A stretch of 64,000 bases of DNA. Source: an uncultured Verrucomicrobiota bacterium (GTDB lineage Bacteria; Verrucomicrobiota; Verrucomicrobiia; Verrucomicrobiales; DEV007). The stretch is from contig CACIUL010000007.1 in assembly GCA_902589825.1 (NCBI GenBank), positions 1 through 64,000 on the forward strand, in the 5' to 3' direction. Position 1 is the first letter of the stretch; the number at the start of each line of letters is the position of its first letter. The notes below the pieces were generated by a model that was not told the DNA's origin, did no database searches, and saw nothing but the letters and a program-made list of their open reading frames with translations. A program made the position numbers and the translations under genes. Positions 4,703 through 56,335 of this stretch are shown piece after piece.

Positions 4703-6216
4703 CCAGCAAGCTCACCATACTGGCCGTATTATGCAGCCTTCAGGCCATTGCCGCTCCGGCGTGGGCACAGCAAATTGCGCCAAAGAAAAGACCCAATATC
4801 CTGATGCTTGTCGCCGACGACATGAACTGGGACACGCCGGGATGCTTCGGCGGTGCCGCACCCGGCATCACCCCGCACATTGACCTCCTGGCGGAGCAGG
4901 GTATGCGCTTTCAACATGCCTATGTCAATGTCTCTATCTGCACACCATCGCGCAGTGTCATGCTTACCGGCCGGTATGCACAAAACAACGGGGCGGAAGG
5001 ATTCCAGCGTATCAGGCCCGGGACACCAAACCTGCCGTCATTGCTCAACCAGGCCGGGTATCTATGCGGCATCATCGGCAAGCCACTGCGGCAGCAGGAG
5101 TTGTTTCGCTGGTCGGTAACCTACCGCTGGCAGGGTACCGGGGATGAAAACCGCTGGGGTCGTGACCCGGCAATCTTCCGGAGCTTTGCCAAGAAGTTTT
5201 TCGCCATGGCGCGCAACTCAAACCAGCCGTTTTTCCTGATGGCCAACTCACATGACCCGCACCGCCCCTTTGGTGGAGGCAGGGCGACCAAGCCCCCCAA
5301 CGAGCGGGCACCCGCCACGCGTACCTTCAGTGCCGACGAGGTGAAGATCCCCGCATTCCTGCCGGATTTGCCCGGGGTACGCAATGAATTGGCAGCATAC
5401 TGCACCTCGGTGCGCCGGCTTGATGACATGGTGCGCGAGGTACTGGAAGTGCTTAAACTCGCCGATTTTGAGGAGGATACCATCGTGATCTTTCTCGCCG
5501 ATCACGGCATGCCCTTTCCGGGGGCAAAGTTCAATTGTTATGTCGACAGTGTTCGATCGCCTTTCATTATCCGCTGGCCGGGAAAGGTAAGGCCCGGGTC
5601 GGTCGATGCCGCACACATGGTAACCACGCTGGACCTCATGCCGACGCTGCTGGAAATCGCCGGGGTGCCCGCACCAAAATCCGACGGGCGTTCCTTCGTG
5701 CCACTCCTGCTCGGAGAAAAACAACCAGATCGAAATGCAGTGTTCACGCAGTTCTTCCATATCCACGGGCGGGACGCCCTGCCAATGCGCTCGGTCCTGA
5801 CCAGGGAAGCGGCATATGTATTCAACCCATGGAGCAATGGTAAGCGCCGCTTCGACCGGCTCGGGGGGGAAACCTTCAGTGCCATGCAACAGGCAGCCAA
5901 GACAGACCCGGAAATGGCCGCCCGGGTGCGCCACCTTGAGTTGCGCACCGTGGAAGAGTTCTTTGACCTGCGCAGTGACCCCGGCTGCCTGAAAAACCTG
6001 ATCGGAACAGATGCCGGAGAGCAACCCCTGGTCAGTGAGCTGCGCACGAGGTTGCGCCAATGGATGGTACAGGTCAATGACCCGGCCCTCGCTGCCTTTG
6101 ATGCGCGTGATAATCCGGCCGCCCTTGAGGCTTTTATCCAGTCCTATCGTGAAGAGGCCCAGAAAGAAGTTGAGGCTCTCAAGCCCTACGAGAAAGCCCA
6201 GAACTTCCGTTTTTAA
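4699..6216 (+). CDS. Secreted type I sulfatase
   Basis: A 505-residue arylsulfatase-family enzyme that hydrolyses sulfate esters, probably on polysaccharides. A signal peptide (residues 1-23, ending AWAQ) precedes the metal-binding PNILMLVADDMNWD. The sulfatase signature CTPSRSVMLTGRY gives Cys81 as the residue that would become formylglycine, which requires a formylglycine-generating enzyme encoded elsewhere. A second metal motif is IFLADHGMPFPG. The ATG overlaps the preceding dehydrogenase stop by four bases (ATGA), so the two are translationally coupled and probably act on the same exported substrate. The length is normal for the family. Substrate specificity cannot be read from the sequence. 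Confidence 0.93.
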   Translation: MTSKLTILAVLCSLQAIAAPAWAQQIAPKKRPNILMLVADDMNWDTPGCFGGAAPGITPHIDLLAEQGMRFQHAYVNVSICTPSRSVMLTGRYAQNNGAEGFQRIRPGTPNLPSLLNQAGYLCGIIGKPLRQQELFRWSVTYRWQGTGDENRWGRDPAIFRSFAKKFFAMARNSNQPFFLMANSHDPHRPFGGGRATKPPNERAPATRTFSADEVKIPAFLPDLPGVRNELAAYCTSVRRLDDMVREVLEVLKLADFEEDTIVIFLADHGMPFPGAKFNCYVDSVRSPFIIRWPGKVRPGSVDAAHMVTTLDLMPTLLEIAGVPAPKSDGRSFVPLLLGEKQPDRNAVFTQFFHIHGRDALPMRSVLTREAAYVFNPWSNGKRRFDRLGGETFSAMQQAAKTDPEMAARVRHLELRTVEEFFDLRSDPGCLKNLIGTDAGEQPLVSELRTRLRQWMVQVNDPALAAFDARDNPAALEAFIQSYREEAQKEVEALKPYEKAQNFRF

Positions 6217-14975: not shown

Positions 14976-17227
14976 TTGCGGTAGAGGAAAGAGTCAGAAG
15001 AGAGAAGGGAAGCGATCAGCGCTTTCATGCTGCCGCCATTGTCCATGTAGGCCTTATCGGCCGCAATGAGTGTGGAGGAGTCGGCGAAGGTCTCGTTGCG
15101 GCCAAGCCAGTAGCGGAAGTTGTGGCGTACAAACGACTGCCGGACGCGGACGGATCCGGCAAGCTTTTCGACAAGTTCAAAGACGTCGGCAACAGGACCA
15201 TCAATGGCGGCGTCACCACTGTCGGTAATCTCGCCTGATGTCTCGAGACGCACATTGCGGGCATCACGGTGGCGGTCGGGAAAGATGGTCAGGATGTCGT
15301 CAAGCATCTCCGTAGTCCTGAAACGGCCGAAGTCATCAAAGTTCTCAAAGGGCAGGCCCAGAGGATTCATTTTCTTATGGCAAGTCCAGCACTCCCTGGC
15401 ACGGGTGGGCTCGAGACGCTTGCGCAGGGTATGGTCGCGCTCCTCAGAGATCACGGCATCGACGGTAATGGGAATCTCCGGAACGTGATCAGCAAGGAGG
15501 TGTTCACGAATCCATTTACCGCGCCGGATAGGGTCGTTGTCGAAATTGCCCGACCAGGCAATGAGCCAGGCCGGGTGGGTGAGGATCCCAGCGCGCTGGG
15601 ATTTCGGCAGAGGGAAGGGCTGCCTGCGCGGATAATCCCAGGTTTCATGGTCAAGGTTGTAGAAGCCCACGTAGGTTCGGCTGGAGGGACCCTCGAGGGG
15701 GATGGGTGTTTTGCCGGCAGCCTCGATACGCTTGATGTAGGCGATATTGGTCTTGTAACCGGAATCGTTGACATTCTCCCGAATATATTTGAGGTCGTGC
15801 CGGAAGTGTTCATCGGAACCGAGGTAGGTAACAAAATAGTTATTTGAGGTCAGGAGCTGGCGCAGGACATCGTGATCCTTATCGAAAATATGCATGACGA
15901 ATTGGTCGGCATCCGTGACGATCCGCTTGGTGTCGAAGCCGCTGTTAACACTGATGCGGTTCTCATCCTTGAAGACCCTCGGGGCGTGGTGATAACCAAA
16001 AAAGTCACGGAAGAAGCGCAGGGTGCGGGTGTTGCGTACTTTGTGATCCTCGGTAAACATCCGGTAATCGGCGACTGACATGTCATTGGCATCAAGGATA
16101 TGCCTGACGGTCCGGCGGATCTGGTCCGGTGAATCGAGCTTGCCGGAACGTGCCAGGGAAAGCAGGGACCCGGATCCGACAGACACCTGTTCCGGAGGCT
16201 TGTCCGTCAGGGCATAGGCAAGGGCGAGGGCCAGCTCATGCGGGGAAAGGCGGCGGCGGCCGTGCTCATCGGGTTCGCCGAATCCGATCTCCAGGCGGTA
16301 GATGACCTCGGGCTTGAGCATGACCGAGACCAGTGCCGCCTGCAGGCCAAGGGCGTTTCCGGCACTTTGGATGGCTTTTCCGGCAAGCTCCATGGTGTTT
16401 TCGAGTTCTGAAGCTGTCGGTGCCCGCCCGAGAAAAAGCCGGTATTCATGGCTTATGGCAGCGGAAAGCCGGGCATTGGTGGGCGCAGTTTTAGAATCGA
16501 CAATAGCACGGAAAACCTCTTCATCCTGGCGGTGAAGCCTCATGCGGCCATCCCACTCGCGCTTGAGGATACCAGTGGTCTGGTAGGAAGCGATCGACTG
16601 GCAGTTCATCATCAGGAGCTGCAAAGTGGCCGAGTCCGCCAGGTGTTGGGCGCTGTAATCGGCAATAATGCCCTTGTTTTCATCAATGGCGAAGGGCTGG
16701 TGAATCGTGACGGCGTGCCGCAGCCCACCAAGATTCTTGACGAACTCATCATAGATGTGCGGGCTGAGTCGCCAGAGGCGGGGCGGTGAAGAGGCGGGGC
16801 CTGACCGGGAGCCATCAAACAGCGTGTTGTGATCGAGGCGGTTGCCAAAGTCCGGGTGGCGGCGTTTATGGTCAATAGTGGGGGCAATGTTCCTCCTGGC
16901 CAATTCGGAGCGAATCCAGGTTGTCAGCTTCTCTTGAGCCGAAGGATCGGGACGGGATTTCTTCCTTGGCGGCATCTGGTGAGTCTCAAGTTGCTCAAGG
17001 ACCTTTTGCCAACTATCAACGGTGACGGGTTGGGAGAAGTCGGTATCGAGAGATTCCAGGTTAAGGCTACCCTTGGTGGTCTCTGCGTCGTGGCACTCGG
17101 TGCAGTGTTTGGAAAAGAATACAGGAGATGCCGGTAGCTGCAACGCGAAGGCGCAGAGAACGAGGGCAATAATATGGCAACGGAGCATCAGTATACAACT
17201 ATGACGGCAAAACAGAGGGGTTGTCAT
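14972..17227 (-). CDS. DUF1592/DUF1588/DUF1585 cytochrome-like protein
   Basis: A 751-residue exported protein. After an N-terminal hydrophobic region comes a planctomycete-type cytochrome c domain with CTECH (C42, C45, H46) and GSLNLESLD. The large DUF1592 region follows, then DUF1588 with a second CWTCH (C613, C616, H617) and KMNPLGLPFENFDDFGRFR, and DUF1585 near the end (SFVRHNFRYWLGRNE). The start at 17227 has an AAGG at fair spacing; a second Met at 17188 would give a neater signal peptide. The gene order matches the recurrent PVC pair in which DUF1592 and DUF1552 proteins are made together, here coupled by an ATGA overlap. The role is inferred to be periplasmic or outer-membrane oxidation of a complex polymer. 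Confidence 0.87.
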   Translation of the reverse strand: MTTPLFCRHSCILMLRCHIIALVLCAFALQLPASPVFFSKHCTECHDAETTKGSLNLESLDTDFSQPVTVDSWQKVLEQLETHQMPPRKKSRPDPSAQEKLTTWIRSELARRNIAPTIDHKRRHPDFGNRLDHNTLFDGSRSGPASSPPRLWRLSPHIYDEFVKNLGGLRHAVTIHQPFAIDENKGIIADYSAQHLADSATLQLLMMNCQSIASYQTTGILKREWDGRMRLHRQDEEVFRAIVDSKTAPTNARLSAAISHEYRLFLGRAPTASELENTMELAGKAIQSAGNALGLQAALVSVMLKPEVIYRLEIGFGEPDEHGRRRLSPHELALALAYALTDKPPEQVSVGSGSLLSLARSGKLDSPDQIRRTVRHILDANDMSVADYRMFTEDHKVRNTRTLRFFRDFFGYHHAPRVFKDENRISVNSGFDTKRIVTDADQFVMHIFDKDHDVLRQLLTSNNYFVTYLGSDEHFRHDLKYIRENVNDSGYKTNIAYIKRIEAAGKTPIPLEGPSSRTYVGFYNLDHETWDYPRRQPFPLPKSQRAGILTHPAWLIAWSGNFDNDPIRRGKWIREHLLADHVPEIPITVDAVISEERDHTLRKRLEPTRARECWTCHKKMNPLGLPFENFDDFGRFRTTEMLDDILTIFPDRHRDARNVRLETSGEITDSGDAAIDGPVADVFELVEKLAGSVRVRQSFVRHNFRYWLGRNETFADSSTLIAADKAYMDNGGSMKALIASLLSSDSFLYRK

Positions 17228-52034: not shown

Positions 52035-53426
52035 ATGCGCCTTTTGATTCCAGCCTTTATTTCCCTGATGCTGACCTTTGCTTCAGCCAGAAAACCCAAT
52101 GTAATCATCTTTTTTACCGATGACCAAGGCACACTGGATGCCGGTTGCTATGGATCCAGTGACCTTGTCACGCCCAATATTGACAAGCTTGCAAGGACGG
52201 GGGTGATCTTTACCCAGGCTTATGCACACACGGTTTGTTGCCCTGCGCGTGCCGCACTGCTTACGGGACGTTATCCCCAGCGCAGCGGGGTAAACCGGTG
52301 GACACAGGGAGACATGAACAGCCCGAAAGGGGTCAACATGGCGCTTGGGGAAGTAACACTTGCCGAAGCCCTGAAGCCCCACGGATATCGTAGCGCTCTC
52401 TTTGGTAAATGGCACCTCGGTGCCCATAAGGATTTTGGCCCGAAAAAGCAGGGATTCGATGAATTCTTTGGTATCCGCGACGGTTTCATTGACAACTACA
52501 ACCACTATTTTTTGCACGGCCAGGGATTTCACGACCTTTATGAGGGAACCAGGCCCGTAAAGGCCGATGGACAATACTTCCCCGAGCTGATGACCGCCCG
52601 CTCACTCAAATTTATTGAGCAGAACAAGGACCGGCCTTTCTTCCTCTATGTGCCCTTCAACATCCCGCATTACCCGGAACAGGCCCCGAAGCAGTTTGCC
52701 GAGCCTTTCAAGGAAATGAAAGATCCGGCAAGAAAATCCTACGCCACCATCATGCATGCAACCGACCACTACATCGGACAAATTGTCAGCAAGCTGGAAG
52801 CCCTGAACCTCCGGCAGGACTCGATCATTATCTTCATGAGCGACAACGGCCACTCTGAGGAAACAGGCAACCGCATACGCGTTGATAACCACAGGAGCGG
52901 GTATCCCAAGGGGCACTTTTATGGCGCCAGCGGCGGCGGGTTTACCGGGAAATGGAAAGGAAACAAGGGGACATTCCTTGAGGGAGGAATCCGGGTGCCG
53001 GCCATCATTTCCTACCCTGGGGTTTTGCCGGCTGGACAATCACGCGATCAGGCCATCACGGCAATGGACTGGTTTCCGACGATTCTCGAGCTTTGCTCAA
53101 TCAGGAAAAAGCCTGAAGATCCCAAGCTCGATGGCTTCAGTTTGTCAAAAATCATTGAATCAGCAGAGACGGAATCGCCTAACCGGGAAATGCACTGGGG
53201 GTGGTTCAACAATTGGGCGGTTCGTGCCGGTGAGTGGAAATTAATTTCCCGCGGATCCTGGGACTGGAAGCCCGGGAATCCTCTTCCCAAGTCCACCCAG
53301 CTGCTTAACTTGAATGACCCCGAACCGGAAAGGAAAAACCATGCCGCAGCCAAGGGCGAGGTTGTCTTGAAATTGAAAAAAGCACACGATCGATGGGCAA
53401 AAAGCGTTGGCTTTAACGGCAAATGA
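52035..53426 (+). CDS. Secreted type I sulfatase, coupled to the selenoprotein gene
   Basis: A 463-residue sulfatase. Signal peptide MRLLIPAFISLMLTFASA, then the metal motif KPNVIIFFTDDQG. The signature is CCPARAALLTGRYPQRSG, where the first Cys (residue 68) of C-C-P-A-R is the formylglycine precursor. GKWHLG (active-site Lys and His) and IIFMSDNGHSEE (second metal site) are intact. Its final codons overlap the ATG of the next gene (ATGA), so both are made together. It is expected to remove sulfate from an exported glycan. It is divergent from the UxuA-like gene. Confidence 0.94.
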   Translation: MRLLIPAFISLMLTFASARKPNVIIFFTDDQGTLDAGCYGSSDLVTPNIDKLARTGVIFTQAYAHTVCCPARAALLTGRYPQRSGVNRWTQGDMNSPKGVNMALGEVTLAEALKPHGYRSALFGKWHLGAHKDFGPKKQGFDEFFGIRDGFIDNYNHYFLHGQGFHDLYEGTRPVKADGQYFPELMTARSLKFIEQNKDRPFFLYVPFNIPHYPEQAPKQFAEPFKEMKDPARKSYATIMHATDHYIGQIVSKLEALNLRQDSIIIFMSDNGHSEETGNRIRVDNHRSGYPKGHFYGASGGGFTGKWKGNKGTFLEGGIRVPAIISYPGVLPAGQSRDQAITAMDWFPTILELCSIRKKPEDPKLDGFSLSKIIESAETESPNREMHWGWFNNWAVRAGEWKLISRGSWDWKPGNPLPKSTQLLNLNDPEPERKNHAAAKGEVVLKLKKAHDRWAKSVGFNGK

Positions 53427-56335
53427 ACACCGTGAAACGCTGGTCAGGCTCATGTCCATGCTGCTGGCTTGCAGTTGCGCTCCTCTTCTTGCTGCCCTCT
53501 TGCAGCAAAACAAAACAGCAGGACGGTCAGCCACCTGTTGAGGATAATGGCAGCCCGGCTTCAAAAGCAGAAGCCTCAAGCCTCGAGGAAAGTGAGCGGA
53601 GGGCAGCTTTGGCTGAAAGCCTGCTGAAGAAAATAGCAGCGGGAATGGCGGGCGGGCGTGTTCCTCCGGGCAGCAAGCCACTTCCGGAACCCGCCTTGCA
53701 GATTGCCGCTAAATTCCGGGGATCAGGTCTCGATAGCCAACACAGCGAAGCCCATGTGTTCCAGATCACCAACAGTAAAGACAAATTTTCCGCCCGCGCC
53801 AGGATTGAGCTGAAGGCACAGCTGGCAAGCGGGCAATTAGGTTCCGTTGTCGGGCAGCTAGGTGCTCAATGGCATGTAAATGATGATGACTCTCTCAGCC
53901 TGGAGAGCTTCACGCACGCTTCTTTCCAGCCCTTGGTTGAAAGCCCGGCAGCATGGTTTACTGAACAAACCGAATCAGTCATCGGCAACGAGCCCGGTTT
54001 TCTGCAACACCTTTCCCGTGGTCTCGATTACTGGATTTCGCGCATCGAGTCAGCACATGGCATTGATGCCTTTATCCGTAATGGCATGGCGCTCGGTGAT
54101 GTTGATGGAGACAACCGGGATGATGTCTATATCTGCCAGCCCGGGGGACTGCCCAACCGGCTCTTTATTCATCAGGCTGATGACACGGTCAGGGAAATCG
54201 ATGCAGGAGTTGGAATCCTCGACCACACAAGTGCTGCGCTCTTTTTGGACATCGACAATGACGGTGACCAGGACCTTGTCCTCGCAACCCCTGCCGGTAT
54301 CAGCCTGCTGGAAAATGAAGGTTCACTCAGCTTTGCTGCCCGTGGTGTGCTGCGCACCAACAGTGCTGATTGTCATGCGCTGGCAGCTGCCGACTACAAC
54401 ATGGATGGCAACCTCGACATATATATCACCTTTGCCCTTGGTGATCGCCTTGGGGATGAGGATGAAAACCGTTTTCTCTTCCATGATGCCCGGGATGGCG
54501 GCGAAAACCAGCTGTTCCGTGGCGATGGCAACTGGTCATTTACCGAGGTAACAGGGCAAACCAATCTTGGCCAGGACAATGACAGGCACAGCCTTGCCGC
54601 CATGTGGCATGATTTTGACCTTGATGGAGACCCTGACCTGTATGTCGCCAATGACTACGGCGCTAACCAGCTTTACCGTAATGACTTGGGCGAGGGAGGA
54701 AACCGGGCCTTCACCGAAATTGCCGCCATGGTTGGTGTTGAGGACAAGGGTGCCGGGATGTCAGCAAGCTGGGGAGACTTCAACCGGGATGGCCTTCCCG
54801 ACCTCTATGTTGGTAACATGTATTCCAATGCCGGATCACGGATCACTTCACAGCCGGATTTCCCAATGGCACAGGATCATGGCCTGCTTGCCATCTACCG
54901 ACGTTTTGCAAAAGGCAATACCCTGCTAAGTCAGGCGGAGCCGAACCAGTTCTCTGAACAGGACGGAGTGGCCGCAATGGGTCGATGGGCATGGAGCAGC
55001 GTATTCGCCGATTTAGACAATGACGGCTGGGAAGACCTCTTTGTGGCCAACGGTTACATTACCTCTACTGAACCCGAGGACTTGTGAAGTTTCTTCTGGC
55101 GGCAGGTCGTGCCGCTCGGCAATTCCGGTTCCAGTCCCGGCCTCGTGCGGTCCAACCCGGCCCAGGATTTAATTGAATCCGTTCGGCGTGGCAGCTCATT
55201 TTCCGGCAATGAACGGCACGTGGTCTATCAAAATAACAAGGGGAATGGCTTCTCCGATATCTCCGGGGTTTCCGGCCTTGACCTTCCTGATGACGGGCGT
55301 GCCGCCTGCTTTACCGACTGGGACAATGACGGTGACCTCGACCTCTGGGTCAACAACCGTAACGCTCCTCAAATCCGCTTTTTCCGCAACAACAACCCGG
55401 CCAAAATGCAGGGACTAACGGTGAAGCTTGTTGGCAAATCCTGTTCCCTTGATGCCATTGGAGCCCGTGTCATTCTTTACCTCAAGGGGCAAAAACCACA
55501 GACAAAATCGGTGACGGCCGGTTCAGGATTCCTAGCCCAGTCATCAAAAACCCTGCATTTCGGTCTTCAGGAAAATATCCCTATTGAGAAACTCGTTATT
55601 CATTGGCCCGGGTCGAAAATGGAAACCCACGCCGGTATTTCAGCCGGGAGTTACGTCATCGCGCAGGGTGAACCTCCCCGTGCGCTGACGCTCAAGGATC
55701 CCGCACCTGGAAAGGCGCCCGCACCCGCTGAGCACGGTGCGGGTCGCACATTTCTCGCACAGCGCCTGCCGGTCAAAACCGTATTTCCAACCCCTGTCGG
55801 CACCACCCGCGAGCCTTCCCTGGTCGTGCTCGCCAGTGAAGATTGCCAGCAGTGCAAAAGTCAGCTTGGCAAGTGGCAGGAAAGTCCCCCGGAAGGGCTC
55901 ATCCCGAGTGTCTATTATATGGAAAAGTTACAGGATGAAAGACCTATACTCTTACAACTCGCCCGGCTGGTGCATGATCATTTTTTCTACATTACGGATC
56001 GCTCCCTGCAAACCCCGCTGTCATTCCTGATTGATCCTGAAGGACGCCTCTGCGCAATTTACCGTGGCCAAGTTAATGATGCCATCCTGAAAAAGGACTT
56101 GGCCGGTCTGAAAATTCAAGGTGAAGAGTTGCGTCTGGCCTCCCTGCCGTTTCCTGGACAGTGGCAAAGTGGCACGGTGCCAAGGGCGGAACCACTGGCC
56201 TTTGTCGAGGAGCTTCTCGATGCCGGCCTGCTTGGCCCGGCACGTCTGTATATCAACGAATACAGGCCATTACTCGAGCCTGATGAATTCTTTCCGCAGC
56301 TCTTGGCTCGTCTTCAGTCCATGGAAAACAGGTAA
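53423..56335 (+). CDS. CRTAC1/UnbV-type lipoprotein, probable selenoprotein (UGA = Sec555)
   Basis: A single 970-residue reading frame interrupted only by an in-frame UGA at 55085-55087; a conventional reading would split it into 53423-55087 and a headless 3' ORF. The lipoprotein signal ends in LLPSC. Seven calcium-type FG-GAP/VCBS loops follow, e.g. DVDGDNRDD, DIDNDGDQD, DYNMDGNLD and DWDNDGDLD; the last lies after the UGA, so the repeat domain continues across it. An UnbV/ASPIC domain spans about 665-750 (IGARVILYLKG, LHFGL, LVIHWPGS). The C-terminal 200 residues look thioredoxin-like, with CQQC (808-811) and a cis-Pro-like TPLSFLIDPEGR. UGA lies between EDL and SFFWRQVV, followed by a SECIS-like hairpin. 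The sec genes are not in the window. A nonsense mutation is the alternative. Confidence 0.85.
55085..55119 (+). promoter_or_regulatory. UGA codon with bacterial SECIS-like hairpin
   Basis: After UGA (55085-55087) a hairpin is formed by GGCGGCA (55098-55104) and UGCCGCU (55110-55116): seven pairs, the outermost G-U, with the five-base loop GGUCG. The apical GG-U-C and the 17-base distance from UGA to loop fit the bacterial SECIS rules. The heptamer GCAGGUC equals the one at the tip of the E. coli fdhF SECIS, where the distance is 18 bases. Confidence 0.82.

Follow-up and report, generated by a model that had tools for sequence, protein, structure and literature searches.

The window, by which we mean the whole stretch of 64,000 nucleotides analysed here from an uncultured bacterium of the Verrucomicrobiota, contains a long reading frame on the plus strand (53423..56335) that is broken by one UGA, and this raises the question whether the codon ends or marks the decay of a gene, or is translated as selenocysteine (Sec). 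An earlier note, made from the letters of the DNA, had proposed the latter. Its description of the frame is borne out by our reading: the single internal stop is a TGA at 55085-55087 (codon 555), and a TAA at 56333-56335 closes the frame, which encodes 970 amino acids, Sec555 included, with an FG-GAP/UnbV propeller and a C-terminal thioredoxin-like domain. Pfam likewise agrees with the note that the domains run on through the UGA, since FG-GAP repeats and the UnbV_ASPIC domain (residues 678-743), scoring above the Pfam cut-offs, flank it in the same frame; these matches, together with the CRTAC1 fold match described below, uphold the assignment to the CRTAC1/UnbV family.

The in-frame UGA and its downstream hairpin

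A SECIS-type hairpin is predicted at 55098..55116 (plus strand), with arms at 55098-55104 and 55110-55116 and the loop GGUCG at 55105-55109. The distance from the UGA to the loop is 17 nt, within the 16-37 nt of the rule for bacterial SECIS elements (PMC13188914), and the SECIS criteria to which the earlier note had appealed are thus matched by both the predicted fold and the spacing. Folding of the single window sequence yields a hairpin that is not unusual by itself (z -1.1), and we rejected such a fold as proof of a SECIS because it is not significant alone. The comparison of sequences is more informative. In an ungapped alignment of 24 sequences 99.3% of the cells are paired, the pair 18-28 takes five standard types (AU, GC, GU, CG and UG), and the covariation score exceeds those of all 500 shuffles. 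A complete stem of six pairs is present in 78 of the 87 distinct sequences, whereas shuffling of synonymous codons, with the usage of each gene preserved, gives an expectation of 3.1. At one pair the wobble position of an Arg codon is matched to the first position of a codon four further along (codon +9), and the residue encoded there varies between Ser, Pro and Ala in step with this wobble base; the copy in L023, with the codon AAC at the Sec site, has a mismatch in the stem. These compensatory changes, along with the choice of codons, indicate that the hairpin is kept by selection at synonymous sites. A separate observation concerns L046 (Vicinamibacteria, at 4868), where a UGA in the motif DY-U-QFFWRQVV is followed by a perfect inverted repeat, GGCGACA-GGT-TGTCGCC, which makes a register-shifted hairpin.

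It is because of this comparative evidence, namely the conservation of this codon across many independent genes, the covariation and the number of complete stems, that the Sec reading put forward in the earlier note goes beyond chance. The UGA at 55085-55087 is neither an error nor the mark of a pseudogene, and the gene product is, as judged by sequence comparison, almost certainly a selenoprotein.

Upstream of the gene lies a sulfatase gene (52035..53426, plus strand); its TGA stop and the start codon of the selenoprotein gene share bases in the sequence ATGA. This overlap is found only in the window and in the near relative L016, suggesting translational coupling in the lineage of the window; we found no conserved gene neighbourhood, and the neighbours vary between the genomes compared.

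Distribution of the gene and of the selenocysteine machinery

A first scan of bacterial genomes, with loci labelled Verrucomicrobiota, Planctomycetota and Acidobacteriota, places the UGA in an identical column in the loci of all three phyla. A profile of 87 residues around the Sec site (A3), run on whole genomes, matches in 25 of the 75 genomes of the window's GTDB family (Verrucomicrobiota); among the matches listed, all of those of at least 95 bits have the UGA, and up to 14 UGA copies occur in one genome. In a Planctomycetota order, all matches of at least 95 bits among those listed possess one UGA each. The UGA stands in the motif DL-U-SFFWRQVV in more than 200 genes from this Verrucomicrobiota family and this Planctomycetota order, among the matches listed at 95 bits or more. 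Most acidobacteriotal matches above 100 bits have the UGA and three lack it, and Sec-less copies are common below 100 bits. The TGA is present in 88 of the 89 sequences above 90 bits among the 106 unique sequences collected. Nearly all of the UGA genes are without any further stop, and some of them sit on multi-megabase contigs. Four UGA copies lie in the window's genome, and this genome is one of only two with UGA copies in a phylum-wide sample of 388 Verrucomicrobiota; the family is therefore patchy in this phylum.

Several groups outside the main motif also deserve mention. A divergent second subfamily (L103 / L180:622-3612 in G000:C29, L174-L177 and L167) carries the UGA at the same site in the form NRDL-U-SIFWRAVV with a similar hairpin, and some of its members also have a thioredoxin-like motif ATWCxAC. 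A further CRTAC1-type group from Roseibacillus (L039 and L041) has a UGA in PHDL-U-AAF at the aligned position. Adjoining tandem copies with a UGA occur in L024, L026 and L184, and those of L184 also adjoin an FG-GAP/UnbV gene of 819 aa without a UGA.

The earlier note had named selA, selB, selC and selD as the genes by which its reading could be checked, and the outcome is a partial one. The assembly of the window's genome, which is 81% complete and comprises 142 contigs, holds a tRNA-Sec gene (selC) with the anticodon UCA, a fragment of selA that runs off its contig, and a selD that itself contains a UGA (KTCGUAAK). No selB was found in this incomplete assembly, the two best model matches (C77 and C22) being EF-Tu and CysN. 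A simple motif scan likewise recognised no selB near tRNA-Sec in the regions of 15 relatives. A tRNA-Sec above 55 bits is present in 20 of the 24 genomes that hold first-scan loci, the four others being those of L017, L019, L023 (with the Asn copy) and L032, and one above 60 bits in 20 of the 22 Acidobacteriota genomes with a UGA gene. No tRNA-Sec above 60 bits was found in nine genomes with a Gly, Ala or Ser copy (L207-L209, L211-L215 and L217), and further copies lacking Sec (Asn, Asp, Glu and two with Ser) do occur in genomes that retain tRNA-Sec. In L228 (G415:C52:208000-227900) a member of the family with a UGA, at 15901, is some 6 kb distant from tRNA-Sec, in surroundings with genes that by eye resemble those of a tRNA selenouridine synthase and a NifS-like protein.

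Two explanations of the UGA would dispense with Sec. On the one hand, the codon could be a true stop, or a site of regulatory readthrough, in a split or decaying gene whose downstream part is translated separately from the GTG at 55109, and mechanical ORF calling does yield two ORFs, 53423-55087 and 55109-56335. We consider this highly improbable, as the UGA is conserved in more than 200 genes from three phyla, nearly all of them free of other stops, the domains continue through it, and the hairpin is selected at synonymous sites. Alternatively, UGA could be read as Trp or Gly throughout the genome, an idea for which the in-frame UGA by itself would speak. Its probability is smaller still: the upstream sulfatase ends in UGA, which is thus an ordinary stop elsewhere, each gene has one UGA and always in one column, the Trp in the same motif is encoded by TGG, and a tRNA-Sec with the anticodon UCA is present. 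The reading that we prefer remains that the UGA at codon 555 would be decoded as Sec, assisted by the hairpin that follows it.

Protein architecture and the residues that replace selenocysteine

According to sequence reading and a regular-expression search, the protein begins with a putative signal peptide (53423..53506, plus strand) that contains a lipobox-like LPSC (Cys27), and N-terminal signals with a Cys resembling this motif occur in many homologues; the protein is probably secreted and lipid-anchored. The CRTAC1-type propeller, with FG-GAP repeats and the UnbV domain, spans residues about 221-745 (54083..55657, plus strand) by Pfam and fold match. The model of the whole protein (pLDDT 83.5, pTM 0.84) matches murine CRTAC1 (PDB 9etn) in its residues 176-750, with Z 36.2 over 450 residues, and places Sec555 of the motif DL-U-SFFWRQVV at the start of a predicted helix, 554-565. 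A thioredoxin-like domain of the TlpA/ResA kind follows at residues about 765-970 (55715..56332, plus strand), as indicated by alignments, model and fold matches, and its redox motif CQQC occupies residues 808-811 (55844-55855, plus strand). The model of this domain (pLDDT 89.8) has a thioredoxin fold in which the CxxC opens a helix, and the site of the cis-Pro of thioredoxins is occupied by a conserved Pro, which the alignments identify as Pro865; the nearest folds are TlpA, ResA, StoA and related proteins. Pfam detected AhpC-TSA/Redoxin in the relatives L024 and L025 but gave no thioredoxin-type domain match on the window protein.

The earlier note had predicted, too, that homologues would have Cys in place of Sec. 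This holds for a distant sister paralogue clade with the motif DYCSxFW, the only sequences with a Cys aligned to Sec555, and fails for the close family, in which Sec-less homologues have Gly, Ser, Ala, Asn, Gln, Asp or Glu at the site and in no case Cys, and SFFWRQVV is largely retained. The paralogues (e.g. G000:C61 and L185:5424-7832; the window's genome has one) are about 800 aa long and about 26% identical, and although they share the FG-GAP/UnbV scaffold of the window protein, they differ from it by having no thioredoxin domain. On a tree drawn up before the copies from Acidobacteriota were included, the distribution of Sec needs three to four changes, which a single gain and a small number of losses could explain among the sequences it contains.

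Sec and the fused CxxC go together. Among the 106 Sec proteins in which the domain can be read, 102 keep the motif, against only two of the 22 Sec-less proteins with the domain (L206 and L220). Among the four Sec proteins without it, one has an ambiguous base and the other three form one clade (L028, L121 and L124), in which Sec persists and neither Cys of the thioredoxin motif remains (the sequence reads WDSSSxDS or similar); these proteins may depend on a separate thioredoxin. About four Sec losses are separable on the tree, three of them with loss of the CxxC. An independent-pairs test of Sec against CxxC pointed in the right direction and was rejected as proof for want of events (sign test, p 0.25): the sequences are non-independent, and with about four separable losses the sign test is therefore unable to reach significance. 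Several positions, among them S468, A470, S594, W633, H712, C808, C811 and that of Q814, which is Glu in most sequences, are conserved in the presence of Sec and decay in its absence, and are for this reason candidates for the active site.

Proposed chemistry and place among known selenoproteins

We regard it as very likely, taking the interpretation as a whole, that the protein is a secreted, probably lipid-anchored selenoenzyme with a CRTAC1-type propeller, whose Sec is redox-active and receives its electrons from the fused thioredoxin-like domain. At the head of its helix on the propeller, Sec555 would be the redox centre of an oxidoreductase working outside the cytoplasm and would react with a substrate such as a peroxide, a sulfoxide or a disulfide, or with a similar compound; the CxxC of the TlpA-like domain would then return it to the selenol, much as thioredoxin does for the peroxiredoxins or Msr enzymes dependent on it. 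Taken separately, a catalytic and redox-active role of Sec is likely, and its recycling by the fused domain is plausible with somewhat less assurance. The main rival holds that Sec555 is a ligand of a metal or metalloid, or a sink for mercury or other heavy metals, on the propeller and not a redox catalyst. Metal binding is indeed predicted for part of the selenoprotein families in a 2026 review (PMC13188914), and the DxDxDG loops, which bind Ca2+ in FG-GAP propellers, are conserved here. However, loss of Sec is accompanied by loss of the fused CxxC, mainly of its first Cys, which indicates thiol chemistry, and in the close family no second conserved Cys or His cluster accompanies Sec; the metal explanation is accordingly unlikely, and we favour the redox role.

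The protein resembles CRTAC1/ASPIC-UnbV proteins (murine CRTAC1, PDB 9etn; PF13517, PF07593) in its FG-GAP propeller followed by a UnbV domain, and differs from them in the Sec-bearing helix of the propeller part and in the fused thioredoxin-like domain. With the TlpA/ResA thiol-disulfide reductases (PDB 1jfu, 1st9) it has in common the thioredoxin fold, the extracytoplasmic setting and, in relatives, a WAxWCxPC motif, but the domain is C-terminal and fused behind a propeller, and the window copy has the atypical CQQC. The in-frame UGA, the adjacent hairpin with a G-rich loop at 16-37 nt and the tRNA-Sec correspond to bacterial selenoproteins decoded by SelB and a bSECIS. Most characterised bacterial selenoprotein families have a thioredoxin fold and Cys homologues, whereas here Sec is located on a propeller and there is no close Cys homologue. 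The statement in the earlier note that no selenoprotein had been described in this family is supported: no FG-GAP, UnbV or CRTAC1 family is among the 119 prokaryotic selenoprotein families and subfamilies catalogued in 2026 (PMC13188914), NCBIfam release 20 has no matching model, and the library of papers searched contains none on a UnbV selenoprotein or on selenocysteine with CRTAC1 in bacteria, a listing in a supplementary table being possible. As far as could be checked, the decoding is thus of a known bacterial kind, and what is new is the fold, the fusion and the way in which Sec has been lost. Tools such as deep-Sep, which requires Cys homologues among the top hits (PMC12013277), would for that reason tend to miss the family.

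On balance, we lean towards regarding these genes as an extensive class of secreted selenoenzymes that is unannotated, reaches 14 copies in a genome, and in which Sec on the propeller is obligate and in the close family never exchanged for Cys, and in which loss of Sec keeps the fold and drops the chemistry and the fused CxxC. The genes concerned number in the hundreds, come from three phyla common in the environment and are probably annotated as truncated or split, and the copy number in some genomes would, if true, place the family among the most multiplied selenoprotein families known. The family would bring a non-thioredoxin fold into the selenoproteome, and its several losses of Sec without substitution by Cys are a natural case that bears on the reason for the use of Sec. 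For part of the very common and functionally obscure CRTAC1/ASPIC-UnbV proteins, it would provide a first chemical hypothesis.
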